A program made the translations under genes and the position numbers. Of a stretch of DNA of 64,000 nucleotides, positions 1 to 62,956 are shown in pieces. Position 1 is the stretch's first letter. Each line of letters opens with the position of its first letter. The stretch comes from Trichoderma breve (lineage: Eukaryota; Ascomycota; Sordariomycetes; Hypocreales; Hypocreaceae), in the NCBI RefSeq assembly GCF_028502605.1, contig NC_079235.1, forward strand, positions 558,001-622,000, in the 5' to 3' direction. Under the pieces are notes generated by a model. It was not told the origin of the DNA, made no database searches, and worked only from the letters and a program-made list of their open reading frames with translations.

Positions 1-3000
1 ACAATTCGTGACCTTTGCCGTTAACAGTAAACATCATGACTTCAACAGTAGGAGGTTGATACGTATGAGTGAGTAGCTTGGCCGCCTCCTCTTCTCAGAA
101 TCAACAGTGTGTTCTAACCGTTGCTTGCTCCAGGAATTGTAAAGCGGCTGCTAGATGCCATGAAAGGCGAGGCCATTTCTGAAGAAGTCGTGCCGCAATT
201 CATGGGTGCTTTCGAAGCGCTCGTGAGATCGAATCTAAGCCAAGAAGTCATGAGATCCCTGTCACTTTTCATTACGTACGCCTTTCACCTACCCGCTTCG
301 GCAGGCTCGCGAACCCCGAGGCTGTTTTTGAACACTTCACGGTCTAGTACCCCTGGCCCCTTCAAGCGGGGGGCAGCGGATGGAGGCGACGGCAATGGTC
401 TGTCCTATGGCACAAGAAGCGTATCGAAAAAGCAACTTGGAACCAAGGTTCTTAGCCTCTACTCTAGAATTCTGTGCGAGAAAGGCAACTTTAACAATAT
501 CAAGAAGTTTGCAAAGACGGTTACGAATAAGGTGAGGCACAAGCTATCCTCTACCCAAATAGTATGCAGTGGCTCAGGATTTTTTATTGACATTTCGATT
601 TCAATTAGTGGCTGCTGTATCTACTTGCCGATGATGACTCTGAAACTGTCGTCCATGGGTGCAAAATCCTAGCTCGCCTCCTTGTTGTCCATGGATCTGC
701 CTATACGTCAAAGTTTGCTGGTAAATCTGGCGGGTTTACGATTATGGCAAGTCGACTGAAAAGATTCTGGGATGTCCCCCCTCTATGGACAATTTGCTTC
801 TGCATCTTGTTTGGGCAGGATGTGGCTGATGTCAACTTTGATAGCAGGGCTGACTTCCACACCCTAGCTGAAAAGTTTGACAAGCGCAAGGTTGTCTATC
901 CTGAGTCTCTGGTTATCATCACATCGATGCTGCAGCATGGCTTAAAGGATGTGATGAAATACCAAGAAGACCCAGATTCTCCGGCAACCAATCTCTCGCC
1001 ATCTCACGCATTATCTCGACCCACCTCTGCCTATGACTCTAGGCCTAGGGCGAGCTCAGATCTTGTCAGAGGTGTGGAACCTAGGTGTAAGTCTGTTCCT
1101 TTGTGTCCTTGACAACCACTCTTTTCTGACCAAATTTGCAGTAATACTCTCTCGAGAAAGCGTAGGGGCACATGCCGGCTTCCTAAAAAATGCTATACAA
1201 GTTTTGCGAAATCTCCATGAGCGGTCATCTGAATTCCGAGACTTTGCTCTGTCATCGGAGTGGATTCGTTTGCTTTTGGCGGCTTTGTACCCGGTCATTG
1301 TCAGCGCTGATGCTGTCACTCCTGACGTGGAACTGAACTCTCGAGACTCTGCTCTGACTTTTGAGGGCAGCGATGTCATTATTCGACCCATGGGCGGTAG
1401 CTCTATGCCAGCACCTATCGTCAGAACGACCAACATTGATCTCGTGCCATCGCCACAGTCGACGCCGCCAAAGGGAACGCCTCTTAGAAGGGCGTCATCA
1501 TTCGTTCTCCTGACTGCCCAGAAAACTGCTTCAGAGGCAAAGCTCGCCATCCCCGTGACAAAGCCTCTGCCTCAACAGCAAAAGATTATTGGCGGCAGCA
1601 GCGCCGGTGATGCCATTGTGGATGGGATCACTGACTTGGTAATGCACGTCTTCATGGATCAAATATTCGTTCGCAAGGAGTTTTCGGGATTCGGTCTCTT
1701 CACCAAAATGCCTCCTGGCTTCCAGGAGCATCAGGCATACTTTGAATCGTACATCTTGAAGAGAGCGATTGCCGAGGTAACACATGTAATCCAGACGAGA
1801 CGCGAGGGAATATGCGAGCCAAGGATTTTGACGAATCTTGGCCGTCTTTGTACCCATCTTTGCGAAGCAATCTTTGAAGGATGGTTCCTAAACGGAGCAG
1901 AAGCTATGATCGACTTTAATGGTATGCTCTTGGAATTTTTGCAGCGGCCCGAGATTGCGGGGTTGAAGAGCGTTCGTCTGTGCAGCCCAGCCATATCAAC
2001 AATACGCAGCTGTCTCTTGAGGACTATTCTGCTCAAGCTCTCGGATTTGGACAGTCGGGAAACCTCAGAGGCCGAGGCCAAGGAGTTTATGAACAAGCTT
2101 GCCTACTGGCAGATGTCCATTTTGGGTTGCTTAGGGGCCGATGACGAGTACCTGAAGCTGTTCTGGTATCAGCTTTATACAAAACTCATCGACGATAAAG
2201 CCTCGATCCGCGGCGCTGCTGCCAACTTTCTCCGCATCATTCTCGTGCAAAAGCCTGAAGAATCAATTGCCTTGATTCGATCGTCTTCTGCACCTGAGCA
2301 GCGGCAGATTGTTCGTGATTTTGAAAAGTTGACAGAGATAGACGACGAGTCATTTGTACTTTGGGTGGACAAGCATAGACCGGCGTTGGACATGCTCTTT
2401 TTTGGCGGCATGTCAAAGACGTGGGAAGATTTTGTCAGCGCAGAGAACCATCGCACTTTTGAGTCTGCGAAATCACGCCTGACAAAACGCAAAGACAAAC
2501 TAAAGACTTGGAACATAGAAGTGGTCGGAGCGGATAGAATCCTTCTCAACCATGAAATCGGTAATAGCGCATGGATGAAGAGCATCTACAACGCAGAGTA
2601 TTTCAAGTATCAGCGTCTCATGCAAGACCAGCAAGATGATTTGGCTTTCCTCACGGCAGGCTATAGAAAGATGGAGCGAGATCTGCAGCGGCCCGGGGCC
2701 GTGTTCAGCATATCCACGGCGCCAAAGTGGAAGCTGGATCGAACAGAGGGTCGAAACCGTATGCGTCTGCGTCTTCTCCCAGACTACCCAGTTGGCGAGG
2801 ACAGATATCAGCCCAAGGCCAAAGGCAGTCTGCCATCGACCAGTGCTTCTTCTGCTACAACTCCTACTACTACTTCTGGAGCTACATTGAGCGCCGTCCC
2901 TGTTTCGCGAGACCCAGGTGCCGTAGGGAGCCGGCCACCTACGCGCTCCGGCGCTATTCTAGATGGCGTCAATGATAACGATTCAGCGTCTCTTACCATG

Positions 3001-5550
3001 GAGCCTGAACCAGTCTCCGATAATCCAGAGCCTGGGCTCACGGCAGAGGATGATTTTGAGCTTGTTGATGACCCCAACGAGCCAAACGAAGGCGACGAGA
3101 ATTTTGAAGACAAAAACCGCAAGGTCATGCGGCGTTTGGAGCATGGCGATCAAGTGCAGGCCGCGTACAACATATCTCGTGTCACGGGCCTCGAGGCCAG
3201 TGAAGGCCTTTTGATAGTAGGAAAGGACGCACTGTACATCATGGACAATGTGTTCCAGTGCGCCAACGGCGACATCGTGAACGTGTGGCAAGCACCGCCA
3301 GAAGAGCGCGATCCGTTTACGCAAATCGTGACCGGTGCCAAGACGCTTGAAAAGCGGCAGAGCGCCGGCGGCCGAGAGCAAGAATCAAGACATTGGAAGT
3401 GGCAGGATGTGATTAGCGTCTCGAAACGCCGGTTCCTCTTCCGGGACGTTGCTATCGAAATCTTCTTCACTGACGGCCGAAGCTACCTTCTTACCACCAT
3501 TAGCACTGGACTTAGAGACGGCTTATTTGCGAAGATGTCGAGTAAAGCACCGCATACCAGCGCGGCGCATGCGCTGCCCAATCCAGAAGATGCGTGGAGG
3601 TTTGATATGCTCAAGGGGTTTGAGGACTCTCCGCAAGGTCTGGGATCTCGGCTCGGCACCCTGTTTAACGCATCGCCGTGGACCTCCATCATGAAGCGGT
3701 GGCAGAGGGGAGAAATTTCCAACTTTCACTATCTCATGGTGGTAAACACCATGGCTGGGCGAACTTTTAACGATTTGACCCAGTATCCAGTCTTTCCGTG
3801 GATTCTTGCCGATTATACTAGCGAGGATCTCGACCTGGAGGATCCGAAAGTGTTTCGAGACTTGTCAAAGCCCATGGGTGCCCAGACTGTCAACCGCATT
3901 CAAGGCTTCATTGACACTTATAGTGCGCTTGAAGAAATTGGACAGACGCCATTCCACTACGGCACCCATTACTCGTCTGCCATGATTGTCTCCTCGTATC
4001 TAATTAGACTGCCGCCCTTTGTGCAGTCTTATCTTCTTGTTCAAGGAGATAGCTTTGACCACGCAGACCGACTGTTCCAATCGATTGGCGACGCTTGGAC
4101 TTCGGCATCATGTAACAACAAGACTGATGTCCGAGAACTGATTCCCGAATTCTTTTGCCTCCCCGAATTTCTGACAAACATCAACGGGTACGATTTTGGG
4201 CGTCGGCAAAGCAACGGTGTCCAGGTTAATAACGTCGAGCTGCCTCCGTGGGCCAAGGGCGACCCTAAAATCTTCATTGCCAAGCATCGCGAGGCGCTGG
4301 AGAGTCCGTACGTGAGTGAGAGCTTACACAAATGGATTGATTTGGTATTTGGCTTCAAGCAGCGAGGCGAGGCGGCGGTGGAGAATCTCAATGTTTTCCA
4401 CAACCTCTCCTACGCTGGCTCGGTCGACCTTGATCAAATAAAGGACGTCAACGAGAGGGCGATTTCGGCCGGTGTCATTCACAATTTCGGCCAGACGCCA
4501 CACCAAGTGTTCCAAAAGCCTCACCCGCCACGAGAACAGCTCAAGTCGTCTGTTAAAAGGCTAGACACGGCCATCTTCTCCTTGGTATGCTTGCCGAATC
4601 CGCTGCTGGAGAGCCACGAGAGGGTTTCAACACTCATCTATGCGCCAAAGTTGGACCGCCTGCTGTGCGCCTCGCCATTCCGCCTCAACCTCCCGCCATA
4701 TGACAAGTATCTGGAGTGGGGTTATGCAGATAACAGCATCCGCTTCTTCTTTGCCGACAACCGCAGGGCGGCCGGTCTGTTTGAGAACCTTCACATTGGC
4801 CAGATCTCTTGCGCGGCTTTTGCCGACTCCAAGACGCTTATTACTGCAGGAGAAGACTGCGTCGTTTCTGTACATGCTCTGCATACGGCACCGGGCAAAG
4901 CGGTAGAGTTGATTCCCAAATCGAGCCTCTTTGGCCACAAGACGCCGGTGACTGCCATTGCGGTGGGCAAAGCCTTTAGCACGTTCGTCACGGCTTCGTC
5001 GGATGGGCAGGCATTCCTGTGGGATCTTAACCAACTGTCTTTTATTCGCAAGCTACCTCTTGTGCGGCACGTAGAGTGCGCGCAAATCCACAACGTGTCG
5101 GGCGATATCATGCTATGCTCGGGACCTAACGTGCTCCTGTACACTCTCAACGGCGGCCTTATCCTAGAACAAAACGTTTGCTCGGACTCGGAGGACTATG
5201 TCCACTCTTGTGCCTTTTACGAAGGCGCTGGCAACGAGTGGCTGGAGAACTACCTCATCTTCACGGGGCACCGCGGAGGCATCGTCAATGTATGGCGCAA
5301 GAGCGTGGTGGGTGGGAAATGGACCTTGGAGCGGCTGCGACGGCTGGACCATATTGATTACACGAGCGACAAGGGAGAGAACACGGCGGCCGGCATTACT
5401 TGCATTAGCCCGATGCCCATGTGTGTCTACACTGGAGACGATGACGGGCGAGTAGTAAGTTTAGCTTTTACAATTCACAAGTGGCTACGATTTCTTTTTG
5501 CTAACGAGGGCATACAGTATGAGTGGAATTTCGCTGGCAGAGACAGGTAG
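1..5550 (+). CDS. BEACH-WD40 domain protein (Bph1/neurobeachin family), 5'-truncated by the window edge
   Basis: Large scaffold protein of the BEACH family, which acts in vesicle traffic and membrane fusion/fission (family knowledge). The window starts inside the gene. My exon model is <1..62, 134..531, 609..1086, 1142..5454 and 5518..5550, about 1,760 codons; joins keep phase (R across the first junction, K|W, L, then GRV|YEW). Visible parts in order: an armadillo-like N-terminal half, an acidic Ser/Thr/Pro-rich linker (about 2800-3110), a PH-BEACH region (about 3120-3520), the BEACH domain itself (about 3640-4550, with SPWTSIMKRWQRGEISNFHY and PVFPWIL), then WD40 repeats to the end. The last intron is 63 nt and in frame, so the uninterrupted reading through it is misleading; splicing gives the natural end YEWNFAGRDR. 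Domain identity is secure; the upstream part cannot be seen. Confidence 0.93.
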
Positions 5551-19077: not shown

Positions 19078-20758
19078 GCTGACTGATCGGACTTGTCGTT
19101 GTGCACAACAAGGTGTCTTGTTCTTCTCAAGGGTAAGTCTACGAGGCAAAAACTGTAACTGATGGCGGATGAAGCTCTGTCTCAATGTTGGTTGCATTGT
19201 CTTGGGGAGCTCAAGTGGTTGAACGACGTGGCTGATTTATGGTTTTAAGCTTAGAGAGTGGCAATCCGTATGACAGAGAGTCTCTTGGATCCAAGTCGGA
19301 AATCCCCCACCTTTTGCCCTGTTAATGCCTGGACAACTACTTACACATGGATCGGTTTAGCCTCACATCTCCCGTCTTCTTTCCGCCCTTTAGCGGTTTC
19401 GTAATGTTGAGTAACGGACGATTTGTCACATGCGTGTTAGTAACAGGGCAACATGGCCCACCACCATGTACGTCAGTTGGTAGTCTCTTGCTGAAGAGCC
19501 AAAATCGCTGAATAATTTTTGGCCCACATTGGAACGAATTGGTGCGTATTTATACGGGAAACATACCGCCTGCAGATACGCGACTTGTAGATATCCAGCA
19601 AGATTATGTTGCAATGGTACTTGGAGGTTCACGTCATACATGCACGATCCAACCATTCAATATTTAGCTAAAGATTACATATTACTCTGCAAAATTGCTC
19701 CGAATGCCACTCAATGCACAACTCTTAACCTCAACTCGATCCCAACTCATTTCTTCTCGGTCCATCAATCTTGGCTTCCAGTGTATGGATAACATGGATT
19801 TCCCGATACACAAAACGAACAGCTTTCCTCTATACTATATTCTACTACAAGCCTCCTAAAAGATAACCCAAGAGTATGGTACGAGACATTTTGTATGTAA
19901 TGTACTGGCTGTCAACCACTTCAATCAAGATCATTTCATGAACCAAAATAACTCATAGAGCATGATTTCCCCCCAGCCAATAGTAGCCCAACTTAACAGT
20001 ATCGGACTTTAAAACCCTAGTCATTGCTTTGGTGATGTCAAATTCGTTACAAGCGCATTGAGCGCCAAACTTCGATCTCCTGCTTTCATTGAGTATACAC
20101 TGCGTGATTGACGAATAGCTCAAAAGCATATTACAAACAGAAGATATAACATCCAGTTTCTCTGTGGCTAGTTGATACTCAATCGTAACCACAAAACATT
20201 CCTCGAAGCGGGAATGTTGCTTCTCCAAATACATGTAAAAGCTCGAGTAAGAAACCCGCATGAGGCCATATACATATACAGCCTCCGGAGGAAGTCAAAA
20301 GAAAGCACGAATTCTGGAAAGACTTTTAATCTCGGACTATGATGAACCCGATATGAAGCCCGTGAATTCTTACTCTAGACATTTAGTTGGTCATCAATAA
20401 GCCAAGCCGTTCTTGTTACAAAGATGGTGGTGATACAATGAAAATTGCAGTGAAAAAGCGCTGCCAGTCAAACAGCTGGTAGAACATGCATTCATCAGCT
20501 GGCAGAATATTTTATCAACAGCTGGCAGATTAAAACCAAACGGCATACCTGCATAGTCGGGCGATAAGATATCAACGCACAACTGCAACCTTTTTCTTCC
20601 TCTTTTCCTTATCTTATTTTCTTTCTTCAGCTTCTCTCTTCTTTCACCACTTTAGAGACAGCTCTTCTTGCTCGCTCTTTTGGTACGTGCCATCTCTCAT
20701 CCATCCCCAATCCGTTCATCCTAATTCTTTGATTAGTGTTTCCTTTTGAAGTGACAAG
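19078..20758. other. Intergenic region upstream of the H3-like gene
   Basis: About 1.7 kb. The left part is the GST promoter; the centre (19430-20400) is AT-rich without a credible gene; the right part holds the three regularly spaced CAGCTG sites and then a pyrimidine-rich leader (20590-20660, TTTCTTCC/TCTTTTCC) leading into the H3-like ORF. Confidence 0.55.
20473..20524. promoter_or_regulatory. Three CAGCTGG sites at exact 23-bp spacing
   Basis: CAGCTG occurs at 20473, 20496 and 20519, each followed by G and a YAGA-like flank (CAGCTGGTAGA, CAGCTGGCAGA, CAGCTGGCAGA). The repeats are direct, 235-290 bp upstream of the ATG of the H3-like gene. An operator for a bHLH or other palindrome-binding factor is the simplest reading (inference). 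Confidence 0.55.
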
Positions 20759-21330
20759 ATGGATCGAACGGAAGAAACTGCTCGCGTATCCCCGGACAAC
20801 GACTCGCAAGGAAAGGTGGCGATGGTCAAGCAAGAAGGAGACGAGGATCTTTGCAAGCCTCTCGCGGCGAAAGCAACTCCCAAGATGATCCCACAGAAAG
20901 CTGCTCGCAGGCGGTTCATTATCCGTCAAAATTCTGTGCGGCGCTTCGGACCTGGCAGTAAGTTCATGCTTGTTGCACGTATTATCTTACAATTCTAACA
21001 ACTTCAGCGAAATCGAACCTAGTCATTGGCAAGATGGCCTTCGTTAGGCTTTGCCAGTCTGTTGCCTCTGAGATTGGTCATCGTCGCCTTCGCTTTGATG
21101 GGGCTGCAATGAACGCGGTTCAAGAAGTATGCGGAGCCTTCCTCGTCAATTATTTCTCCGGTAATTCTCTATCATTCTCTGTATCAAACTGAACACTAAC
21201 GTCTCTAGCCCTTAATGTTATTGAGAATCGTGCAAACCGTGCCACGGTCATGCTCACCGACGCCGCACTTTTGAAGCAGGCGTTGGACGTCCTCGAGCTT
21301 ACTCCGAAAGAAAAACCTACAAGCAATTAG
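20759..21330 (+). CDS. Divergent histone H3-like protein
   Basis: Small basic/acidic protein clearly derived from histone H3. Exons 20759..20957, 21008..21160 and 21209..21330 give 157 aa. The first residues after Met, DRTEETARVS, align without gaps to H3 residues 1-10, with K4->E, Q5->E and K9->V and with R2, T3, T6, A7, R8, S10 kept. After an acidic insertion, KPLAAKATPKMIP matches H3 18-30 (lysines at the K18, K23 and K27 places kept). FGPGT corresponds to H3 YKPGT, but the following alpha-N helix is almost entirely missing. The histone fold then runs AFVRLCQSVASE, LRFDGAAMNAVQEVCGAFLV and NRATVMLTDAALLKQAL, matching alpha-1, alpha-2 and loop 2/alpha-3. It is not an ordinary H3 and lacks a typical CENP-A look. 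Function unknown; expression is not shown by sequence, but intact frame and clean introns argue against a pseudogene. Confidence 0.85.
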
Positions 21331-21904
21331 ATTTGGTTATACCAATTGAGACGGCCTCAGAGTTTCTGTAAGGTGAACCGCTTGGCTTTATTGCGAGGGG
21401 GTTACAGTTAAACATGTGTTTACTAAGTAGATACCGAATTAGCTATGTAGTTTGCTCTTGGCAGTACTAGCATTTTGTTCGGAACTTGTCTCAGTCTAGC
21501 GATTGTTCCCTATAATTGATTCCTACAAACGTTTCCTACAACTATTTTTGACCCATATTTTAAGCACTTTAGAGGCCGTGCGGATGTATTATCAAGTCGG
21601 CATCGAATTTGGCAAAGAACGGCTCGTTAGTCAATATGTGATGCACATCGCCGAAATTGAGCGGCGTTCGGCCATTTTCGGCCACTCCTTTGAGTGAGAC
21701 GTAGACGATAATGTAGCCACGCACATAGGCGAAAACGATGATCTTTCAATAGTAAGACTGATATAGTCAAACGATGACGTATAATAATATCAACTCGGTA
21801 TTGTGTACTTATATAGTCACTGCATATGTAGAGCGGGAAGCCGGTCCCTCTTCCAACTCTAATCTCCTCATTGTCACTTATCATTCCCCTACGTTATCTA
21901 CATA
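21331..21904 (+). promoter_or_regulatory. Promoter region of the aconitase-family gene with a TCGGC direct repeat
   Basis: 574 bp between the H3-like stop and the hydratase ATG. At 21668..21682 it holds TCGGC-CATTT-TCGGC, a direct repeat also present (with variation) upstream of the cluster regulator and between the PrpD and lyase genes. A further CGG lies at 21662. The rest looks like 3' untranslated sequence of the H3-like gene plus promoter; I see no other gene. Confidence 0.6.
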
Positions 21905-24848
21905 ATGACTGCCAATCTCAATACGAACGAACTTTTGACCAAGTGGTCCGATCTGTTGTTCAAATCTCGGGCTGTCAAGCTTGACGTAGCGGATATAACT
22001 AATGAAGGAGTACATCCGCTTATTCTGCTTGACAACGTTGGCCAGGTACTCCTCAAGCAGGGAGCCTCTCGGGAAAGCCAAGTATTCTCTCAGATATCTG
22101 AAATCGCCTCAACCTCGCCCAACTATGGAGGACTTGGGCTGAATACAGATGTTCAAATCACTGAAGATGATATACACGAGATTAGCTTTCTCATATCAGC
22201 CTGTGAGCAGCTTTCATATCGATATATTATATATGTTCCTTATTGTCTATGCCTTGTACTGACCTTTTAATTCAGGGCTGGAGGCACTCAACTCGGATGA
22301 TCGAAAGAAATCCACGCAAGCCAGTACCCAAAAGCTAGCACCAAAAGATAGACCACCAATGAATGTTACTGAAAAAATATTCGCTATGCACGCTATTGAC
22401 TCCAAAGGCTATGTAAAAACTGGCGATACTATTCGGGTATCTCTGGACTGGATCATGGCTTCAGAGGCGTCATGGGCTGTAAGTAACCCCGACTTTTTCC
22501 ATCGTCAATACTGATTCACGAACAACTTGGTGCTAAAATACTACTCAAGGGTATGGAAGGAACATATAATCGCCTTGGAAGTCCCGGCATCTTCCGCAAT
22601 GATCGCTTCTGGCTTGCCGGTGACCACGTCGTGGATCCTAGAATTAAAGGCATGCCTCAAGTTAAGAGGCTAATTGAGTCATCTGAAAAAGCGCGCAAGG
22701 TCTTCAAAATGACTGAGTACCAGGGTATGAATGTAAGTTAAGCCAACATCAGATTCACATCCATGCTTAAAACAAGACTTTGCTAACGCCATCGACATTT
22801 TAGTACACAATTATGCATACAGAGTTTTTCAGAGAGCGTGCCCAGCCGGGTATGCTCCTCATCGGCTCCGATTCTCACACATGCTCTTCTGGCGCAGTTG
22901 GCTGTCTTGCCATTGGGCTTGGAGCGGCGGATGTCACCATGGGTCTCATCACGGGAGAGACGTGGTTCAAGGTGCCTGAAGTTGTCAAAATTGAGTTCGT
23001 GGGGCAACCAAGTCGTGGAATTGGAGGCAAAGATGTCATTTTATACGTCTTACAGCAACTCAAGAGGAACACAGTTGCCTCGGATCGCGTGGTCGAGTAT
23101 ACTGGGCCTGGTCTAAGTTATCTTTCCCCAGATGCACGTTTTGCAATTTCCAACATGACGACAGTAAGTTTATGAGTCGCATTACAGTTGGAATGAATCG
23201 AATTAACAAGATGTTTTACTCTAGGAACTTGGAGGTGTGACTGGGATTTTTACTCCGGATCATATAACCAAGGCATTCATTGACGGACGAAGAGTGGCCC
23301 GGCATAGGAACGCATCAACCTACTTTCGTGCAGACGAGGGGGCAGTCTACGCTGAATCGCACGTCATCGATCTAGCCAAGGTTGAATCCTTTGTGGCTAA
23401 ATATCCGAATCCCGATGATGTCGTTCCGGTGACAGATGTTCTGGGCATGAAGCTGGACGGATGCTTCATTGGAGCCTGCACCACAGCGGAAGAAGACATT
23501 ATCCTCGGCGCCTTGGTCTTGGAGCAAGGACTGAAGAGTGGACTATCTCCAGCGAAGGACGGCAAAAAGAGAAAAGTAGTTCCTGGGTCTCTACCTATTC
23601 TTGATAAGCTGCGAAAATCGGGACTTGCACAGATTTATGAAGATGCTGGCTTTGAGATTGGCGTTCCAGGATGCAGCTATTGCGTGGGTATATCTGCAGA
23701 CCGCGCAAAAGAGTCTGAAGTTTGGCTGTCATCTCAAAATAGGAACTTTGAGAACCGTATGGGTCAAGGTAAGTGAAATGTTAACCCAGATAACAGAAAA
23801 AGGAACTCATCATGGGATTTTAGGTTCTATCGGAAATCTCGCTTCGGCTGCGACTGTGGCAGCGTCGTCTTTTCAAATGACAGTGACAAACCCACAACAT
23901 TTCATTGATATGATCCCTCCAGAAAGATGGGAGCTTTTGAACGGCCGCAGTTCTATAAAAGGAAAGCTGTCAGGAAAAGAGCCGGACTGGGTTGAACCAG
24001 CAAGTACTGTTGAAGCATTGCCTGAAAATGTATTGAGCGACAGTCAATCGGCAACACCACTCACTCAACATGATGATTCCAAGGATTCAGCTGTGGTAGC
24101 GGCAGAGGTTTCCGACCAGCATGAGAAGAAGGGAGAAAAGCTTACTATACACGGAAAGATCCAAAGACTTGGAGATTTTGTAGATACCGATGCGGTACGT
24201 CTCCCTTGAATCACAGCATGTCGCTTGCAGTGAGCCTAACAATTAGCAGTTGGCACCGGCCCAGTTCCTTGTCTCATCTCGAACTAATGAAGAAATTGGA
24301 GCTCATTGCCTTGAATATACGAATCCAGAGTTCCGCGCTCGAGCCAAAGAAGGCTTTGATGTCGTGGTGGCAGGCAAGGCATTCGGCTGCGGCTCTTCAC
24401 GAGAGCAAGCGGTATCCGCACTACTTGGTATGTACAGTTTAGCCCTCATACTCTTCCCCTTTATTTCGTTGGCCTGGATATTGATGATTGATTTTCTGAA
24501 GGATGTGGAATCAAATGTGTAATTGCCGAATCTTTTGCTTTCATCTACGGCCGCAATCAGCCCAGCCTCGGCCTTTTAGGCTTTACCATGGACGATCCGG
24601 CCTTCTTCGAGGCAGCTGTAGACAGTGCAGAAATCAGCATTGACCTGGAAAACAATCGGATTCATATTGGTGAAACCGAGTTTTCCTTCCAGTTGTCCAC
24701 CATGGAGAGAGAATTGGTAGAAGCAGGAGGCATCACTCCGGCCTTTAAGAAGTTTGGCAAACAGCTTTTTGACATGATCTGCGGCAGCACCAAGGATGGC
24801 AGGAGAGCTGTGGAAGTCGGTGGCCAAGCTGCCGGTATGCAATGGTGA
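21905..24848 (+). CDS. Aconitase-superfamily hydratase, fused LeuC/LeuD (isopropylmalate dehydratase-like)
   Basis: [4Fe-4S] hydro-lyase acting on a small di- or tricarboxylic acid. Eight exons, 21905..22202, 22276..22478, 22550..22732, 22804..23163, 23225..23768, 23824..24194, 24250..24427 and 24502..24848, give 827 aa. Cluster cysteines are C433 (GACTTAEED), C498 and C501 (PGCSYC), with the usual 65- and 3-residue spacing; [11 protein letters not shown] is at about 251. An acidic linker of about 60 residues (around 23990-24150) joins the large part to the swivelling LeuD-like domain, which carries GSSREQA at about 700. The layout follows fungal Leu1, but the sequence is divergent and sits next to PrpD and lyase genes, so it is more likely a specialised paralogue (methylcitrate, dimethylmaleate or aconitate type) than the leucine enzyme. 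Acceptor of exon 7 could be 24247 or 24250 (one Gln more or less). Confidence 0.87.
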
Positions 24849-25007
24849 ATGAGATGGATAGTGACCAAAATACAGCTACTCTAAAGTCTTACTGGTTCTC
24901 TTTTCTCCGTGATTATATCTGTATGTCATTGTCGTGACATTTCAATAACACGAAACGGGCAGCTTACAAAGTCACGTGCCAGCACTCACCACTTCCCTTC
25001 TAGCCAA

Positions 25008-25022
25008 TCGGCCAATCTCGCC
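25008..25022 (+). promoter_or_regulatory. TCGGC-N5-TCGCC site upstream of the cluster regulator
   Basis: TCGGC-CAATC-TCGCC, 46 bp before the ATG of the Zn2Cys6 gene. It differs by one base in the second half-site from the TCGGC-N5-TCGGC repeats of the two neighbouring promoters. May be an autoregulatory site (inference). Confidence 0.45.
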
Positions 25023-25067
25023 CTCCTTCATATCATTGTAAACTCACTTCTCACGAAACATGTATTG

Positions 25068-27317
25068 ATGGCTCCTGAACGAGTCCGAGTGCGTCGTCAT
25101 CCAGCATGCCGAGACTGTAGAGTTCAAAAGGTAAGCAATCATTATCATCATTATGATATCATGCTTCAATCGCTGATATATGGCGTCCGTGTAGGTCAAA
25201 TGCGATGCCGAGCCTCCTGCTTCGTGCACGCGATGCCGTCACATGCAACTTTCATGTGTTGTTGAACGGACACCGGCATCTCGGCGGACCAAAGCTCAGC
25301 TACAAAGCGAGTTGGAGGCCATGAGACGCCGCTCTGGTGCGGATGAGGAGACTGATGGCGTGTTAGACAGCCCCACCTCCGGGCGAGGGATGGCGAGACC
25401 CTCCGGCGTCGATGTTACAGCTGGAGCTCCGGCTTCTATCCCAGATACGGCAGAAGTTCCATTCTTGACTCCACTGCTTGTTCCGGCCCTGGCTTCAGCA
25501 TCGGCTCCAGATGCGGTGCTTGCTAGTCCACAGCCAGCAACGACACCCTCAACAGTTAAGGAGGGTGGTAGTCATCAGTCTCTCATATTGCAGAATGATT
25601 CAAACGAATCGATAGCCAACTCTAGAGAGTTTGATGGCCAACTGGTTTCCGGTCGCAAAATTCAAGATTGCTTCGATTTGTACACGCCCCGATTTCTTCT
25701 CGGCCGTCTGAACACCGATACTGACTATCCCGCAGATTCTTTAGCTTGTATGCCCCATTCTTGCCGACCTCCCAGTTAGAACCAAATCCAAACCAATGCT
25801 ATGAGCAGTCTCCCTTTTTGTTCTGGGTCATCGTCTATATCGGCAGCAGACGCTATACTGGTGACCCAACTATGCTGGGTCGACTCGCCCCAAAGATTAA
25901 TTCGATGGCCTTTGCATCCCTGGAATCGCGGAGTAGCCCCATACAGGCCATCCAAGGCATATTATTACTATGCCAGTGGCCAACTCCGGTTAATACTATG
26001 CACAGAGGAATTAGTCTTGTTCTCGCAGGTGCAGCGCTACACCTCGCCATGCAAATCGGACTACATGTCGCTGGCGTTGGTCAAGATTTTGCAAGGACGA
26101 TACTGGACGGCAACCGGCTTGAAAGAGCTAATCGCGCCATGCTATGGAAGCAATGCTGCATAACTTGTTACATGTGAATCTCCAGCCCCTAGTCACTAAT
26201 ATTACGGCTAAACTGACTCATTCATGTTATAGCGTTGGGCTTGGGGAAGGGATCTTGCCCCTAGGATTGAGTGATGCCTTCACTTTACCAGTTCTCTCAG
26301 ATGGAGGAGATGGTGGTGACGATGCAAACGCTCAACAAGAGACCAAACTGCCTCTCAGATTGTGCGAAATTATGATATGTGCAACTGAAGCATTGAGGAG
26401 AATCCATGGCGGTCGTGACCCTGAAAAAGCTGCTTCACTACTGTCGTGTATTAGTTTGTTCGATGCGCAGCTAACGAAAGCTGCATCTCAAGGTCAAACA
26501 GCCATTGGTAAGAACAATTCCTTCCGAGAATTTAACTCTAACATAGTTCTAATGGTTGAGAAACAAGATTCTATTTATTTTCAGTGCTTTCGCCTACATC
26601 TCCTTTCATGCCACTTTCTCATAGACCCAGCATCTCGCAAACTCGAAGCCTTTATTCCTCTTTTTGCAGTTGCATGCAGCTTCATCAACACCGCGTGTCA
26701 GCAGTCCTGGAACGAAGGGGCTACCGCCAAGAATGCACCCGTCGTTGTTCAAAAATCTGTTATGCTGGCAGCTTTCACAATCCTGAAAATCCATCGCAGT
26801 GAGCTCGCGCCGCATTTGGATCTTCAGGCTGGTGAGCAAGCTTATTTTGCCGCCATATTCTTTGCCCGAGAAGAGTCACTGCAAAATAATGATCTGAGCG
26901 CCAGGGCTGCTTCCATACTCGGTCAATTATGGAACAGCCAATCAATATTTAAAACCAAGAATGGTACAGTTGATAGCCTGACCAGCCGAATCTCTAGCAG
27001 GTTGTCAATGAGCACCCTCTTTGATTGCCTATGGTGGTGGAGACAGGAGTTTGGTGGGCTGGGCAATCCTTACGAGAATAGACAGCAGAGTATGATTCCA
27101 ATTGCGCCTTTTCTTGTCCAAAAGCCGTTCACTGATATGAGATACAGCCCGATCCGAGACCTTGACTGGAACTGAAAGTGTCACTTCATATGCGCTGCCA
27201 GCAACTGGTGATGTAAATGCGGTGCCAGACATTCAGCAATCGGCACTCCTTGCTGATGAACCGTTTGTTGACTTCGATTGGGCTATGAACCTAGATATGA
27301 CTGATTGGCCTATGTAA
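25068..27317 (+). CDS. Zn2Cys6 transcription factor, likely regulator of the aconitase/PrpD/lyase group
   Basis: Exons 25068..25130, 25195..25679, 25736..26173, 26233..26507, 26547..27089 and 27148..27317 give 657 aa. The zinc cluster has cysteines at 14, 17, 24, 32, 35 and 42 and is split by the first intron between residues 21 and 22. The fungal regulatory domain starts at CFDLFFSLYAPFLPTS, which appears only after removing the 56-nt intron 25680..25735, and continues with SPFLFWVIVYIGSR. The last intron (27090..27147) restores the C-terminus ending FVDFDWAMNLDMTDWPM; an unspliced reading would stop early at 27175. The 39-nt segment 26508..26546 has GT-AG ends but is short and in frame, so it may be retained (670 aa). 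Position between the hydratase and the PrpD/lyase pair suggests pathway-specific control. Confidence 0.84.
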
Positions 27318-27578
27318 CATAACTTGATATAGATACTACTAACTAGCATTTACGTATTCAGTATTATTACTACATGTCGCTTGGATTTGGGCAATGCGGA
27401 TACTGGTTAGTTAACTTGGGGTGCTGAATAGCCACTCTCTTTCTTGTGGTAAAGTACACTGTGATGGATACGTCCAAATGTGTATAAGAAGAAGAATCCG
27501 TGTTTAGTTATTTTGATGTCGATATATCGTCTATTCTAACATTAACTAAAGTTAAACCAAGGCTGAAAAAATGTCTAA

Positions 27579-29060
27579 TCATCCAATTGGATTCGCCGTC
27601 TTGCCCATGAGCAGCTGACTCAATACTCCAAGATCATTACAATCCTCGAGATTTAGAATAACATCTTCAATCTTTTGCCTTCGCTCGTCGTCAATCACAT
27701 TAGCCGTGATATTCTTCCACTTTTCAAATATCTCATCATTGCTCAGCAGCGGCTTAACACTCTTCGCCAACTGCCGGTCCGCAATGATAGGCTCCGACCT
27801 GCCCTTGAACCAGACACTCACTCGGGTTCGCATCTTGTCAAAATCGTTGTTGAGCTCACACGTCGTCTTGCCCACCAAATCCCAGACCTCATCTCGCTCA
27901 ATTGCCTGAGCAGAGAACTGAGGTGGAAGAACTGCACTGTCAACGATGTATGTGGCTGCAACATACGAGTTGCTCATCTGCGCTCCCGTCGCTGTCAAGG
28001 GACGCTTAGTTTCCCATCCTCCGTGCTCGAAAGCAGGCTTGCTCAACTCAATCAAGATCCTCTCAATCCCAGAGAAATCATCCAACAATTCGGGATAAAC
28101 CTGACGCAAATCTGCCAAGCAGTCCACCGTGTTGTGTGTTCCTGCCATGCTGGCATATGGCTTGATTGCAACACCCTTCATCAACCACTCTTGACCAAGC
28201 CCCTTGGCAATTTCATCAACCTTGTACTGTGGCTCCATGCTGTTACCACTGGTGAATTGCTTCAGAAAGCCGCCGTATTCGCGTTCAAAGACACGCTTGA
28301 TCCCGATGTAGCCAGTTTGTGCGAGAATCCCGCCCAAGAGGCCGTTTCTTGCTGCGAAGCCATGCTGCATGCGTTTTACTTCAGACTCAAACTGCGCGGA
28401 CATTAATCCACCAGCCTGAGTGCATGCGATGCCAAAAGCGTCTTCAATAGCACCAGCTGATAGGCCGAGGAACTTTCCTACCGCGGCGGCGGATGCTGGA
28501 GGGCCAAAGACGGCACCGGAATGCCATCCCATAGACAACATGTGAGGTCCATGAAGAGCGAGGCCAACGCGAGGTCCAACTTCCAGTCCAGCAATGTATG
28601 ATACTATGAAATCCTTGCCAGATCCAGAATAAGAAGATGAAGCTGCACTTGGCTTCAGTGACAAATGATCAGATGCGGCGAGCAACGCAGGAAGAATGAT
28701 GCTATTCGAATGCAGAGGAGCTCCGGTGTGCCAGTCGTCCAGCTCAAATCCTTGAATGAATGAGCTGTTTAGCAAGCACGCATTGAGAGCATTGATTCGG
28801 CGTTCATAGCCAATGACGCCGGCGGAGCCCTCTGTAAGTTCCAGGTCTATTAGAGCTTGGGTCGCTTTTTCGGACCATGGTAGATGGGCGCCGACTAAGC
28901 CGCATGCGATGCCATCTAGAATGAGATATTTGGCACGGATACGAAGGTTTTCTGGGATATCGTTATATGTGAGGGAAGATATCCATGTGCAAAGCTGTCC
29001 TGTTGGGCTTGCTGGATCGGAGGGTGTGTCCGATGGAGTTGCAACAGCGGTATGGGTCAT
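27579..29060 (-). CDS. MmgE/PrpD family protein, CadA-like (aconitate decarboxylase or 2-methylcitrate dehydratase type)
   Basis: Intronless, 493 aa, the usual length of fungal cis-aconitate decarboxylase and of 2-methylcitrate dehydratases. Conserved active-site segments of the family are visible: ELDDWHTGAPLHS at 106-118, GWHSGAVFG in the middle, FESEVKRMQHGFAARNG (Lys and His) and AGTHNTVDCL (His). These patterns are closer to the fungal CadA branch than to bacterial PrpD as I recall them, but the branch cannot be fixed without a tree. No targeting peptide is obvious; the first 20 residues are Ser/Thr/Pro-rich. It is divergent from the lyase gene, sharing a 389-bp promoter, and convergent with the Zn2Cys6 gene, 261 bp away. 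Confidence 0.88.
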   Translation of the reverse strand: MTHTAVATPSDTPSDPASPTGQLCTWISSLTYNDIPENLRIRAKYLILDGIACGLVGAHLPWSEKATQALIDLELTEGSAGVIGYERRINALNACLLNSSFIQGFELDDWHTGAPLHSNSIILPALLAASDHLSLKPSAASSSYSGSGKDFIVSYIAGLEVGPRVGLALHGPHMLSMGWHSGAVFGPPASAAAVGKFLGLSAGAIEDAFGIACTQAGGLMSAQFESEVKRMQHGFAARNGLLGGILAQTGYIGIKRVFEREYGGFLKQFTSGNSMEPQYKVDEIAKGLGQEWLMKGVAIKPYASMAGTHNTVDCLADLRQVYPELLDDFSGIERILIELSKPAFEHGGWETKRPLTATGAQMSNSYVAATYIVDSAVLPPQFSAQAIERDEVWDLVGKTTCELNNDFDKMRTRVSVWFKGRSEPIIADRQLAKSVKPLLSNDEIFEKWKNITANVIDDERRQKIEDVILNLEDCNDLGVLSQLLMGKTANPIG

Positions 29061-29449
29061 GATTGATTGACTGTATCTCGGCGATGCTGAAGAAGTGGGT
29101 TCAATGGTATAATGATGTACTTAATTTCTCCAGAAAACAATCATATAAAGCTAGAACATGCACTTATTTATTAGACATCTTGAGTAGACAATATCGCGGT
29201 GTTGTTGAACACTTGTTGCAGTGTCAGCACTACGCACTCGGCGAATATCGGCATTTGACAATGACGACGGAGGCGGCCAGTCTCGGCAGGCCGGATCTCG
29301 CCAGCTCTGGCTGGATATAGCGGATGTTAATGACGATTCGCGACGTATTTCTATGGGAAGATAAATAATAGAAATATGCATGGGGAGGGGGGGAAGTAGA
29401 TATCTCAATTTAGAACATTATCATTGACGCACGTATCGTTATCATCACC
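29061..29449. promoter_or_regulatory. Bidirectional promoter of PrpD-like and lyase genes, rich in CGG triplets
   Basis: Contains TCGGC-GAATA-TCGGC at 29238..29252 and further CGG triplets at 29268, 29274, 29284 and 29292, six within 56 bp. Such CGG clusters are the usual half-sites of Zn2Cys6 proteins (established knowledge); that the neighbouring factor binds here is inference. Confidence 0.6.
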
Positions 29450-30509
29450 ATGGCTAATCAGACGCAGCAGACGGCAGTAGCTAGACTCCGAGCTCAATTG
29501 GCTGAACCTGACAATATCATTGTGTGTCCAGGTGTATACGATGGCTTTACGGCTCGCATAGCTCTTAAAGCCGGCTTTGACTGTTTATACATGGTCAGTC
29601 CGTTGTTGTGTATTCAGTATGCTTTTGCTAAGATACAGGTTTAGACAGGAGCCGGCACGACAATGTCTCGGCTTGGAATGCCAGATCTAGGTATAGCTAC
29701 ACTGAACGATATGCGGGATTCGGCTTCTATGATTGCCTCGTTAGACCAAAGTGTGCCTCTCATCGCAGATGCAGACACTGGATTTGGCGGTAGGTAACAC
29801 TTAATCAAGACGCTCTTGCGCGTCACGTCATCTCTTTATACATGGTTAATAATTGCATATCGTCTATGCTTCTCAAGGCCCTGTAATGGTTGGACGAACA
29901 GTATCTCAATACATGCAAGCGGGAGTCGCCGCGCTGCATTTAGAAGATCAAGTCCAGTCCAAACGCTGCGGCCATCTCCTAAACAAGCAAATCGTCCCTG
30001 AAGACGAGTTTATATCTCGCATCCGAGCTGCCAATATCGTCAGAAAGAAGCATCTTGGCGACATTCTCATCATCGCCCGCACAGATGCCCTGCAGTCCGA
30101 GGGCTACGAAGTGGCAAGGGATCGCCTCAAGGCCGCCATTGCAGTGGGAGCAGATATCGCTTTTCTAGAGGGCATCACGTCGAAGGAGCAAGCTCGGCAG
30201 ATTTGTGAGGATCTAGCACCTACCCCTGTGATGTACAACAATGTGCCCGGGGGCTTGTCTCCAGACTTGTCGGCTCATGAGGCTAAAGAATTGGGCTTCA
30301 AACTCATTATATATCCTGGACTATGTCTTGAACCCGTTTTCGAAAGCGTGACAAGGGCTATGGAAGGGTTGAAGAAGGATGGCGCTCCTCCAAAGTCTGG
30401 GCAAGATCGCAAGGGCTCTCCCAAGGCGCTGTTTGAGGTGGTTGGACTGCGCGAGTGTATCGGACTCGATGCCGCTGCTGGCGGTGCATCATATACCGGA
30501 GGCGTCTGA
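29450..30509 (+). CDS. Isocitrate lyase/PEP mutase superfamily lyase (methylisocitrate/dimethylmalate lyase or oxaloacetate hydrolase type)
   Basis: Predicted to break a C-C bond in a 2-hydroxy dicarboxylic or tricarboxylic acid, or to hydrolyse oxaloacetate. Exons 29450..29593, 29645..29789 and 29878..30509 give 306 aa, the size of the short (single-barrel) branch. Seen: metal-binding DADTGFGG at 90-97, the catalytic-loop signature KRCGH at 125-129 with the acid/base Cys, LHLEDQ before it, and ARTDAL after it. The Cys marks the lyase/hydrolase branch rather than the phosphonopyruvate enzymes. No peroxisomal SKL tail; it ends SYTGGV. First donor is GTCAGT, less common, but phase and family fit (CLYM|TGAGTTMSRLG). 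Which acid is the substrate is unknown. Confidence 0.86.
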
Positions 30510-35859: not shown

Positions 35860-37847
35860 ATGAGTTCTCCCGCAGAGCCTCACTCATGCGAACTATGCGA
35901 ATCGAGACTAATTTTCACCTTTGGCAACTACTATTCCGACCAAGGCTGGTACGAGCTCATAGACGAGAACTACTTCGCTACAGGAGAAGCGTATGTCTTT
36001 AATATCGCATATGACGAGGCCGTTTCGCTGGCGGACCAAGGCTGCGAACTGTTCAAATGGCTTGTTACGTTGCGACGGGACGATACGCACTCTGAGAGCT
36101 ATCTGAGGGCGTATTTCGCGCATAACTCGAGGGAGCAGATGGTGTTAGATTGGGTGGATGAGTTGGATGATCACATTGATGGGGGAACGCTGGAGCGGAA
36201 GCTGATTGTTTGTGCGGAAAAGAGGTGAGATCTCGATTTATGTTGGAATGGGTTCAATTACTACAAAGACTGATAATGATAAGTGAACTGGCTGTAGAAG
36301 AGGTTACATATAGGCCTCCCAATCTGTTCCCGTCGTCCAACGAGACGGTAGAAACAATCAAGTATTGGCTCCAGGAATGCTTCACAACACATGCCGAATG
36401 CCAACAGCTTCAGAAGAGCAACCGGCCTTCCGATGGGTCATTAACAGGTCCTCGGCGCCTCTTGCACCTCTCCGGAAAAGCTGCACATCCCCAAGTGAGA
36501 CTTCAAGAAAACTCATCTGCTAGCAAGTTTGTCGAATATGCCGCATTGAGTTACTGCTGGGGAGGAGATCAACCGGTAAAGCTCAAGGAGAATCTCGTCA
36601 AGTCATGGATAAAAGACGTCCCGTACGACCAGTTTCCACAAACAATTAAAGATGCTATTCAAGTAACAATGGCTCTGGACCTAGAATATCTCTGGATTGA
36701 CGCTTTGTGCATCATTCAGGATTCGAATCAGGACAAGGCAGAGCAGATATCACGCATGGCTGAGATTTACGAGCAGGCATATATAACTATATCTGCGGCC
36801 AGAGCAACTGCTGTACCAGAAGGCTTCCTCCACAATCGATATGTAGCTGGAGAGAAGGGGTTTCGTATGCCATTTACTTGCAAAGATGGCCAGATGAGCG
36901 CCGTGATACTCTGGCAGGGAAGAGAACCGGACGCATGGGAGCCCATCGACCAACGATCCTGGTGTCTTCAAGAGTCCATCTTGTCGCCGCGTGTACTTGA
37001 ATACGGAACGCACAACATTCGCTGGCACTGCGCTCGGAGTCGCGCAGATGAGTCGAAACTACAGTCTGATGGCTGGGTCGGACACTCAAGGACTTTTGCG
37101 CAGCTGAACATGTCTCACCCACTCACGTCGAGTATCGATTGGACGGGCTTAAGTGAATCTTACAAGTTTGTCGAGGTATGGCAAACGCTCGTGTCTCATT
37201 ACACGCGCCGCGGTTTAGGCTGGTATCAGGACAAATTACTAGCCATCTCCGCCATTGCCCGAAAGATGAGCAAAATGACGGACAAGCATTACATTGCAGG
37301 GCTGTGGACGGAGTTTCTGGGGGAGACGCTGCTGTGGCATCCGAATCACGGGCCAGATGCAAAGGAAAAGGCGAGCAGACATGCTACATATGTTGCGCCG
37401 TCGTGGTCGTGGGCGTCATTCAGCGGGGAGATTGACTTTACGTTTGGGTCGACGATGCATTTGCTGGAGCTTGTGCGATGCGAGGTGAAGACACAGATTC
37501 CCAATGATGAGTTTAGTGCGGTGACGAGTGCGAGATTGGAGATTAAGACGTTGATATTCCAGGCGAGGATTCGGAAGGGATTTTACGGGTGGTTTCTGTG
37601 GGACGAGCAGATGAAGGATGAGATTGATGGATCGTTGATGTTTGACGTGGTGGAAGGTGATGTTGATGGCGAGGTTGTGGAGGATGAGCAAGTGTTATTG
37701 GCGTTGATCATGACTCAGGATGCATTGATGCTGAAGAAGAAGAATGGCGTAGGAGTGGAGGAGTTTGTGAGGATCGGGATATTCCGAGAGGGACAGCGGA
37801 TGACAAACCGGGCGAGATGGGAGATGGGGGAAGTTGTCATGGTGTAA
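35860..37847 (+). CDS. HET-domain protein with an extra N-terminal region
   Basis: Heterokaryon-incompatibility family protein, a class linked to non-self recognition and regulated cell death in filamentous fungi. Exons 35860..36224 and 36284..37847 join (AG|T, Ser) to 642 aa. Residues 1-120 form a separate part with CELCE near the start and many acidic/aromatic residues; I do not recognise it. The HET domain follows, with EYAALSYCWGGDQ, IKDAIQVTMALDLEYLWID, ALCIIQDSNQDKAEQISRM and YITISAA, and later RSWCLQESILSPRVLEYG and PSWSWASFSG, typical of the family. No NACHT, WD or ankyrin part. Confidence 0.88.
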
Positions 37848-38740: not shown

Positions 38741-40444
38741 CTATTTTTCATCATACCACTTGGCAGTGAGAGTATTAAGTTCCCTAGTTAAGATTTCCCC
38801 AGCCAGGCGAGGCGATGGCCTGTCGAATTTGTTATCTTCAGCATGAATCCAGTAACTGTTAAATTCATGTACTCGAATAATGTCGTTTATTGGAATTGCT
38901 CTTCCATTATTATCAAGGAGATCACACGGGACGTATGCGCTCCGTGCCGTCCGGCGTTCCGCTAACCGCACCGCATTTGCTAGATACAGCTGCCTTCCAA
39001 TGTTGATAACTGTGACGGTTGGCGTATCGACCAATCTTTGGTTGTGTAACTGATAGTCAACCAAGACAACAAATCTTGCTGACGTCTGCTTGCGAGCCCT
39101 CAATTCTAAGATGAAGGTATAACCTCGTTGATTAACTTTCCCTTTTCGTGATAATCCACCAAGAATGGCAGGAAAATGCCGATTTCCAGACTGTGTTTGG
39201 ACTGGGTATGTAAATGTCGTAGAATAACTCTCCCACACCCTCGAGCCAAGGCTGAATCCATCGCGCTTGAAATTGATATCCAATGCTTTAACTTTTCTGA
39301 TGAAACAAACTAGTTCTGGCATGGCCGTTTCCATGAAATTCGAACTGACCCAAACAGGATCTGAGAACCTAACGCACTCATTCTCCGCAGTTAATTGAGA
39401 GGGAGCCGTTCTGGGGAACATTAAAGGGATAATTAAAGATATCCGGTTCCAAAAACGTTGGCCTTTGTTGTCTACCAGAATAGCGTATCCAATTGCGTCA
39501 TCGATTGGATCTCTTCGGATCCTTAATGTCGTTTGCAGACCTTGCGGCGTCAATGTAAAAGGAAGCTTCACAAATGAATGTATTTGCTTCATTGGGCGTA
39601 CCAAAATTGGATATTTCTGGAAATTGGCTGGCGAAGCAGCCAGGCCATTAGATGTAAAGTCAGTGTCAGTATCTATAGAGCCCCATACTAGTATAGAGGC
39701 ATCATCATTTACTTTAAGTATTTCCTCTTGGAGACGCTGAAATGCTCTCTCTCCTTGGCCATATAACATAGGTAGGTCAATCTCAAAAAGGCCGAGTAGC
39801 GAGTAAGCCCGATCTTCAACTCGAGTAGTCTGTCGCTTCGCGGCCCAAGCCATAACACGTCCTACTCGGAGTGTCTGTATATTCGTTTCTCCAATAAAGT
39901 TTTGGACACGAATTTCCGTCTTTTTGTTGATACTCTTTTTCAAACTTCTGGCCGTGCCAAACTTCTTCCAATTCGCATCAACAAATACAACATTTTCTGG
40001 AGCGATCAGCTCTTGAAGCGTCCAACCGCGAGTGAACCATAGAGAAGCCTCAAATGACTTGAGGAATGCCGCCCTATACGACAATTTGCCTCGCCGATCG
40101 ACGTTGTGATTAGGGGCAAGTACATCCGAGAGGTAGGCATAACAGTCTCCAGAGTTCCTATACCATTGGTACATAGAGTTAATGGCTTCTTGGAGTTCAG
40201 CGCTGCTGGATTTATCGATGCAACAGGTGTCAACCCATATATATTTATAGCCATCGCTCAACGCCAGCTGACGGAATTGGTCAATTTTGCGGAAGCCTTG
40301 TTTGATCTCATGCTTCTTTGTGTCGCGCATGTCTTGGTAAGAGATCTCGTCGGATTCCCATCTATGCGACAGAATTGCATATTGTGGGATATCATTGCCA
40401 TAGAACTCGAAGAATTGGAGATTTTCCGTGCTCAGTAGACGCAT
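38741..40444 (-). CDS. HET-domain protein of the HET-E/HET-D N-terminal type
   Basis: Intronless, 567 aa. Starts MRLLSTENLQFFEF, then the HET domain: PQYAILSHRWESDEISYQDM, GYKYIWVDTCCIDKSSSAE, SMYQWYRNSGDCYAYLSDV and FTRGWTLQELIAPENVVFV. This is the subtype usually followed in HET-D/E proteins by NACHT and WD40; here only about 330 uncharacterised residues follow, so it is a stand-alone version. Second HET gene within 5 kb, convergent with the first, but of a different subtype, so not a recent tandem copy. Confidence 0.9.
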   Translation of the reverse strand: MRLLSTENLQFFEFYGNDIPQYAILSHRWESDEISYQDMRDTKKHEIKQGFRKIDQFRQLALSDGYKYIWVDTCCIDKSSSAELQEAINSMYQWYRNSGDCYAYLSDVLAPNHNVDRRGKLSYRAAFLKSFEASLWFTRGWTLQELIAPENVVFVDANWKKFGTARSLKKSINKKTEIRVQNFIGETNIQTLRVGRVMAWAAKRQTTRVEDRAYSLLGLFEIDLPMLYGQGERAFQRLQEEILKVNDDASILVWGSIDTDTDFTSNGLAASPANFQKYPILVRPMKQIHSFVKLPFTLTPQGLQTTLRIRRDPIDDAIGYAILVDNKGQRFWNRISLIIPLMFPRTAPSQLTAENECVRFSDPVWVSSNFMETAMPELVCFIRKVKALDINFKRDGFSLGSRVWESYSTTFTYPVQTQSGNRHFPAILGGLSRKGKVNQRGYTFILELRARKQTSARFVVLVDYQLHNQRLVDTPTVTVINIGRQLYLANAVRLAERRTARSAYVPCDLLDNNGRAIPINDIIRVHEFNSYWIHAEDNKFDRPSPRLAGEILTRELNTLTAKWYDEK

Positions 40445-41131
40445 CTTCGCGATGATGGGCGGAGATATATTGAAACTTAATAGACGTTTGGTCCGAACAT
40501 TCGGCTGAATTTTAATGGCGCGCCAAAATCCAGGAATTTAACGGCCCAGAGAGAACAAAGACGATTTATAGTTGTACAGGCAGGGAGCAAAATGGGATCC
40601 TACGCATTGGACAGTGAGCTTAGAGCAGAGGCGCGTCGTCAAGAGGTGGTGTGTTAGTAGCACCATCCTAGAGCGGAGCACTAAGGAACCGTGGCGCCAT
40701 TAGGTAGATCCGCCGTCGAAGTGGGACGGTTTTGTGAAGGAGCACAGCCTACTGTACAGGCAATATCGAGAATCAGCGGCCAACCCATGCCGCCATCAAT
40801 ATCGGGTTTGGGAATCAAGCAGCGCCCCGCGCTAGGCTTTGTGTAAGGTACTGCGCAAGGCTCACTGTGTATCTTTTCCTTAAAACAAGAGAGCCTGTGG
40901 CGTAGCTTCGGCGTGCAAGGATGAACCTGCCTGAGGTGCTTGGCTATTGGCTGATCTGTGTTCGCTGCAGCAGGCTAAGGAATATACATGTAGTAAAATG
41001 CGGGGTTTCACGGCGGCCTTTAAGACTGGCGTTCCATGCTTAACAGGCACAACAGGGTACCCGCGAAGATCAACTATCTATGCTATTTCAACGCCGTCTC
41101 TATAAAACAGTGGCAGACAATCAAAATCAGA
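40445..41131. other. Divergent intergenic region between HET and BTB genes
   Basis: About 690 bp, GC-richer than the region to its left. No gene seen. An ATG in frame with the BTB gene lies at 41036 but adds an atypical leader (see BTB entry). Confidence 0.5.
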
Positions 41132-62733: not shown

Positions 62734-62945
62734 GAAATATAGATGTAGTAGCAGTTATTAGAGAAATGTAGATATAGTAGCGGTTATTAGAGAAATATAG
62801 ATGTAGTAGCGGTCATTAGAGAAATGTAGATGTAGTAGCGGTTATTAGAGAAATATAGATGTAGTAGCGGTTATTAGAGAAATATAGATGTAGTAGCGGT
62901 TATTAAAGAAATGTAGATGTAGTAGTAGTTATTGGGGAAATGAAA
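62734..62945. repeat. 29-bp minisatellite, about 7 units
   Basis: GAAAT-start units begin at 62734, 62763, 62792, 62821, 62850, 62879, 62908 and (partial) 62937, an exact 29-bp period. Core TAGATGTAGTAGCGGTTATTA with point changes (ATATAG/TGTAG, CGG/CAG/TAG). A worn unit precedes it from about 62705. Confidence 0.95.
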
Positions 62946-62956
62946 ATATAGCAGCT

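Follow-up and report, generated by a model that had tools for sequence, protein, structure and literature searches.

A gene of Trichoderma breve, here named H3x, encodes a strongly altered histone H3 that, to judge by its sequence, derives from H3 and keeps the alpha-1/alpha-2/alpha-3 fold sequence. Histone H3 is among the slowest-changing proteins. In most ascomycetes, H3 variants are described as absent (PMC6703697). The reading favoured here, and held tentatively, is that H3x is a fast-evolving, weakly constrained H3 paralogue, predicted to be an accessory H3 that enters chromatin weakly. No description of the H3x family was found in the titles and the openings of abstracts searched in the literature.

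The window analysed is a stretch of 64,000 nucleotides (C4:558001-622000) of the T. breve genome (38.5 Mb, 9 contigs), and H3x lies on its plus strand at 20759-21330. The gene contains two short introns, and splicing of 20759-20957, 21008-21160 and 21209-21330 yields an uninterrupted frame for a protein of 157 amino acids. Exon 1 (20759-20957) runs from the start codon to the first base of the T67 codon (T45 in H3) and is identical to the corresponding part of P0001, the annotated T. breve protein. Intron 1 (20958-21007, 50 nt) falls in phase 1 within the codon of H3 T45 and is read through in the relative P0013. Exon 2 (21008-21160) starts at the expected site of alpha-N and encodes alpha-1, loop 1 and early alpha-2. 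Intron 2 (21161-21208, 48 nt) falls in the codon of H3 106, inside alpha-2, and is read through in the relative P0012. Exon 3 (21209-21330) encodes late alpha-2, loop 2, alpha-3, a C-terminal extension of ~10 residues and the stop. Both introns start with GT, end with AG and contain a CTAAC motif, which we take to be branch-point-like. P0001 as a whole is 100% identical to H3x; the gene is thus already in the databases, under a generic name only ("core histone H2A/H2B/H3/H4 domain-containing protein"). The splicing, the GT/AG ends and the identity to P0001 confirm the intact frame and two clean introns of the original prediction, and the open frame in T. breve bears out its view that this is not a plain dead copy.

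A profile search gave a significant histone match: P0001 scores 28.8 bits against Pfam Histone (cut-off 26.4), and all ten family members match this profile at E<=0.01. The top phmmer matches of H3x in the PDB are H3.1 chains (E 1.3e-9). Together, the Pfam and PDB matches bear out the predicted identity as an altered H3; among NCBIfam families, P0001 matched none. T. breve also has a normal H3 (L001, on C7) and a CENP-A (L002). No second copy of H3x was found in the genome by protein or DNA search, the latter returning H3x itself alone.

The tail tip of H3x (MDRTEETARVS, 20759-20791, plus strand) is identical to H3, in register, at six of the ten residues after Met, which was reached by 4 of 200,000 shuffles; the score of the entire tail against H3 was topped by 0 of 20,000 shuffles. 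The proposed H3 register is therefore real, and the reported replacement of K4 by Glu and K9 by Val in T. breve is correct. Loss of K4 and K9 is evidently a property of the family and not of T. breve alone: in the eight of ten members that have a tail tip, K9 is absent from all (V, A or T) and K4 from seven, and S10 is kept in all eight. Which other H3 residues are kept varies by member. T. breve retains T3, T6 and R8, P0010 has Lys at position 4 and Thr after S10, and the tail of P0013 runs on as STG, like H3. This mosaic is consistent with descent from one ancestor that had the complete H3 tail.

Residues 12-32 (20792-20854, plus strand) are not alignable to H3. They put 21 residues in place of the seven of H3 (11-17), an insert missed by the original prediction, and this insert is the most alike of ten segments among members (mean pairwise identity 0.78). 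It contains VKQEGDED, a string that presumably resembles a SUMO consensus. In P0001, residues 22-30 read MVKQEGDED, with acidic residues after the SUMO-like consensus; P0010 and P0013 have Glu in place of the Lys, and P0008 and P0009 are without the stretch ahead of EGDE. The K18/K23/K27 block that follows (KPLAAKATPKMIP, 20855-20893, plus strand) is kept as described earlier (K27 in 10/10 members, K18 and K23 each in 9/10), but T. breve has Pro for R26 and Met for S28.

The reported loss of alpha-N is also correct, and its exact size can be given. In T. breve, the residue after GT (H3 44-45) is H3 57, so that 11 residues (H3 46-56) are gone, among them R49, R52, R53 and K56. Seven of the ten members (P0004-P0010) have alpha-N, more or less altered, whereas P0001-P0003 do not, and on the tree this absence requires one change. 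Unlike the K4/K9 loss, the loss of alpha-N thus happened once and later, in T. breve, T. afarasin and T. camerunense. The possibility that alpha-N is hidden in intron 1 or lost by splicing alone was ruled out by two relatives: P0013 reads the same intron 1 (SKFIFIARIMLQF versus SKFMLVARIILQF), and P0012, whose contig has the same length as that of P0013, encodes part of alpha-N before alpha-1. In T. breve, the alpha-N coding DNA itself has therefore been deleted, at the start of exon 2. An additional gap in P0003 (GLG-IIGK) was not counted as a deletion, since it is explicable by a gene model with a later AG acceptor; such an acceptor exists in T. breve (CCTAG, 21018-21022).

Within the fold, T. 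breve H3x also carries the changes R63G, R72Q, H113R and K115N, and it keeps K64, R69, R83, R116, T118 and D123. The H3 residues lost and kept are presumed to have DNA-contact and tetramer roles. Of the 75 positions compared in the fold, just 23 have the H3 residue, and K64, F67, F84, A88, Q93, L100, F104 and D123 are invariant in all ten members.

An AlphaFold2 monomer prediction from an alignment enriched in H3/CENP-A relatives (the second model) places helices at 75-88, 98-125 and 133-145, the histone fold, with no alpha-N. Confidence lies in blocks of 79-93 over residues 71-140 and is low for residues 1-67 (overall mean 62.6). A Foldseek search with this model returned 36 matches at E<=0.001, with entry titles naming the nucleosome, other histone or chromatin complexes, or UAF. 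The tightest rows are nucleosomal chains, with an rmsd of 1.3-1.5 A over 73-76 columns; other rows are far looser, the first one being 8.9 A over 93 columns. The H3 likeness of this model is not independent evidence, because its alignment includes H3/CENP-A sequences. The first model, built from the ten family sequences alone, was poor (pLDDT 56.6, with a broken alpha-2), had a low-confidence helix at 46-61, before FGPGT, and gave no Foldseek match at E<=0.001.

The family joins H3 against the CENP-As (support 96/91) in a tree built without the long-branched P0019, but joining it to fungal CENP-A is not rejected by the AU test (p 0.107). With P0019 included, the tree does not decide between H3 and CENP-A. 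The tree alone is thus not decisive, and CENP-A identity is ruled out by other characters: the H3-type tail, F84 (10/10 members) in place of a CENP-A-type Trp, and a loop 1 with at most one extra residue. These characters uphold the earlier call of an altered H3 rather than a CENP-A. The CENP-A of T. breve (C3:2298801-2299175) is, like H3x, a divergent H3 relative that changes faster than H3; unlike H3x, it has no H3 tail, carries RWQ and a longer loop 1, and keeps alpha-N. The two also differ in spread within Trichoderma: H3x forms ten clusters with identities down to 49%, whereas the CENP-A search, whose query had an approximate N-terminal join, placed two named Trichoderma among the best 120 of 7639 matches, both 92% identical. 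P0019 itself, from Hortaea werneckii, is a very divergent H3-like protein of 107 amino acids that adjoins the family in one tree; here, H3 may have decayed or diverged independently.

Gene structure bears on the origin of H3x. An intron at the L70/V71 boundary is found in both H3 and CENP-A of T. breve and is absent from H3x, which has two others. Because its introns differ from those of the local H3, H3x is not a simple recent duplicate of that gene. Origin from an intron-poor (perhaps retroposed) copy or from a foreign donor is possible.

The first protein search found 11 proteins and the profile search 29, comprising ten clear family members, three pieces (P0011-P0013) and other matches. 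All ten members bear Trichoderma names, and these searches found full relatives nowhere else; the family thus appears restricted to Trichoderma, provisionally, since the search reaches only relatives that share short words. The members are separate 90%-identity clusters, and T. breve H3x shares 49 to 82% identity with the other nine. Seven clusters belong to T. breve, T. afarasin, T. camerunense, T. harzianum (two), T. pleuroticola and T. aggressivum, and three to Trichoderma isolates without a species name. Most of these species, we assume, are of the Harzianum group.

On the favoured reading, H3x, when made, would pair with H4 through the retained fold and would enter chromatin only weakly. 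Its nucleosomes would be unstable, with DNA ends unwrapped, because R49, R52 and R53 of alpha-N are missing and R63, R72 and K115 are replaced. It would also be blind to the K4/K9 methylation systems and would thus act as a low-level accessory H3. By analogy with known variants, loosely wrapped nucleosomes are a plausible prediction. Two alpha-N arginines have been tied to DNA-end flexibility by simulation and nuclease work, as summarised in one report (PMC4365049). The best mechanistic parallel appears to be mouse H3mm18, for which a cryo-EM nucleosome structure is described as having disordered DNA ends and an ambiguous alpha-N, and which carries R53S, R72L and R83C and forms unstable nucleosomes (PMC8855299). 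The mouse H3.3 sub-variants are, like H3x, presented as lineage-specific H3 paralogues, some of which were once called pseudogenes (PMC8855299; PMC4574566). However, the same reports present them as strongly conserved when set against known H3, and an alpha-N segment exists in H3mm18, whereas H3x matches H3 at the 23 fold positions given above, has alpha-N deleted and keeps R83. H3V-CTG of Candida is likewise an ascomycete H3 variant confined to one clade, but its description gives three differences from H3 and an unvarying protein across 182 isolates (PMC6703697), whereas the sequence of H3x is rewritten throughout.

The main rival, judged almost as likely, is that H3x is a decaying duplicate. 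On this view, an H3 copy was functional early on, then lost its role and has since drifted near-neutrally, its frame surviving in several species through chance and recency. Selection was judged from protein sequences alone, and the replacement chemistry of close pairs is neutral-like, as decay would have it. For instance, across five close pairs the 98 replacements average -0.357 in BLOSUM62, where random missense mutation of the T. breve gene gives -0.379, and 9149 of 20,000 neutral simulations scored as high. Replacements in the fold average -0.14 in H3x (n=56) versus +0.55 in seven H3/CENP-A pairs (n=71; p 0.008). Matrix yardsticks of ordinary constraint disagree, the PAM30 and BLOSUM80 expectations being rejected (1 and 6 of 3000) and that of BLOSUM90 not (904 of 3000). 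The flatness of the site rates also favours decay, with a gamma shape of 2.2 in the H3x fold versus 0.71 in H3/CENP-A. Site rates are not significantly related to H3/CENP-A conservation (Spearman rho 0.14, p 0.21, 77 positions) and show no relation to hydrophobicity (p 0.11 and 0.41).

The gene models and codon usage point the same way. Four of the ten gene models are shortened (P0007 in an internal stretch, P0008 and P0009 in the tail, P0010 at the end). P0011, on a short contig, has Arg at the T. breve Ser that spans the splice donor GT, and the donor therefore looks altered there. Codon bias is low (GC3 0.55 in H3x versus 0.79 in H3), and most other members carry polar core changes such as I89T, L109D and V117D.

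Conversely, the hydrophobic core of T. breve H3x is kept: among 16 large-hydrophobic positions that have changed, 15 still hold a hydrophobic residue where 8.8 would be expected, a result matched in 12 of 20,000 simulations (~0.006 after ten tests). All ten members lie above expectation in this test, although they share history and are not independent, and none of the other nine survives correction for ten tests (counts of 20,000: P0010 751 and P0009 826, ~0.04 uncorrected; the rest 1668 to 4571). Along a tree of 1.94 replacements per site (~300 replacements), no stop occurs in the ten predicted proteins where ~10-12 would be expected (0.033-0.040 per replacement at random mutation), a count that also speaks against decay but is biased, since a copy with a broken frame does not get into protein databases. 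The few relatives that allow a reading share both introns (P0012 and P0013) and part of the 5' leader (P0006) with T. breve, which likewise argues against decay. Constraint on individual residues in the family is thus weak, as far as protein comparisons tell. The original prediction had named a long but constrained branch as what would support it; neutral-like chemistry and flat rates leave little of that constraint at the level of residues, and the T. breve core is the part that stands. Given such weak constraint, any role of H3x is probably dispensable or sequence-tolerant.

The fullest functional version is unlikely, namely that H3x is a natural alpha-N-less H3, expressed, forming end-unwrapped nucleosomes, K4/K9-free and modifiable at K18/K23/K27, in a family under diversifying selection. 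It is also quite improbable that H3x is a non-nucleosomal or conflict protein, either a histone-fold subunit or a decoy for an H3-H4 chaperone. Diversifying selection would account for a frame that is maintained while its residues change freely, and the open frame is indeed found alongside neutral-to-radical replacements. Rates are slightly lower in the tail insert and K18-K27 block than in the fold (0.89 versus 1.01, p 0.036), the opposite of a normal histone, but this difference is small and one among several comparisons. A low net charge (just +7.6 versus +19.7 for H3) and a fold match in the yeast UAF complex (one chain of 7z0o), where H3 serves outside nucleosomes, are also consistent with such a protein.

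H3x as transposon cargo is disfavoured and very improbable, although its protein is the same kind as H3L of Pyrenophora tritici-repentis, which is described as H3-derived, with a tail insert and variable helices, and as neither H3 nor CenH3 (PMC3538342). H3L occurs in 26 near-identical copies inside hAT elements according to that report and, with its altered helices and suspected drift, appears closest in kind to H3x (PMC3538342). H3x, however, is single copy, lies in no clear element, occurs in several species and has alpha-N deleted. A weak inverted pair does bracket the gene (left arm 20395-20420 on the plus strand, partner 21367-21393; ~22/26 paired, one gap), but it does not stand out clearly from chance: a pair as good arose in 51 of 400 shuffles of the 1.5-kb flanks, and in 10 of 400 for nearer flanks chosen after seeing it. 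The core of the pair has no other exact copy in the T. breve genome, no target-site duplication was seen by eye, and no transposase domain was found among 20 of the longer reading frames in the window.

Upstream of the gene, in the promoter or 5' leader, lies a 23-bp tandem repeat of 2.6 copies with CAGCTGGCAG cores (20471-20529, plus strand; TRF score 69). The structured promoter proposed earlier comes down to this repeat, with nothing more seen. The spaced pair of CAGCTGGCAG cores has one other site in the genome, at C1:2353999-2354027 and not at the H3 gene on C7, and a histone-type promoter was rejected for this reason. P0006 retains the leader overlapping and just 3' of the repeat: its N-terminal extension NSWQIKSKQHTC corresponds to NSWQIKTKRHTC, the read-through in T. 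breve.

The surroundings of H3x in the window include a possible catabolic cluster at 21905-30506. It comprises an aconitase/isopropylmalate-dehydratase-like gene from ~21905 (domain matches within 22804-23773), an MmgE/PrpD protein at 27582-29060 (minus strand) whose best solved match is cis-aconitate decarboxylase, and a lyase at 29853-30506 whose best solved match is 2,3-dimethylmalate lyase (3fa3). This gene mix presumably resembles the last steps of bacterial nicotinate breakdown. Two convergent genes at 36180-37844 (plus strand) and 38744-40537 (minus strand) have HET (heterokaryon-incompatibility) domains, and adjoining tandem arrays lie at 62688-63017 (a 29-bp unit in 8.3 copies and a perfect 20-bp unit in 3).

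As a weakly constrained H3 paralogue, the reading tentatively preferred here, H3x belongs to a family whose open frame and H3 fold pattern persist although most positions change, and it would thus offer a natural test of what H3 needs. Related species with and without alpha-N would make the entry-site role of this helix testable beyond engineered mutants. If the gene is instead decaying, H3x would give an unusually clear view of the death of a histone gene.
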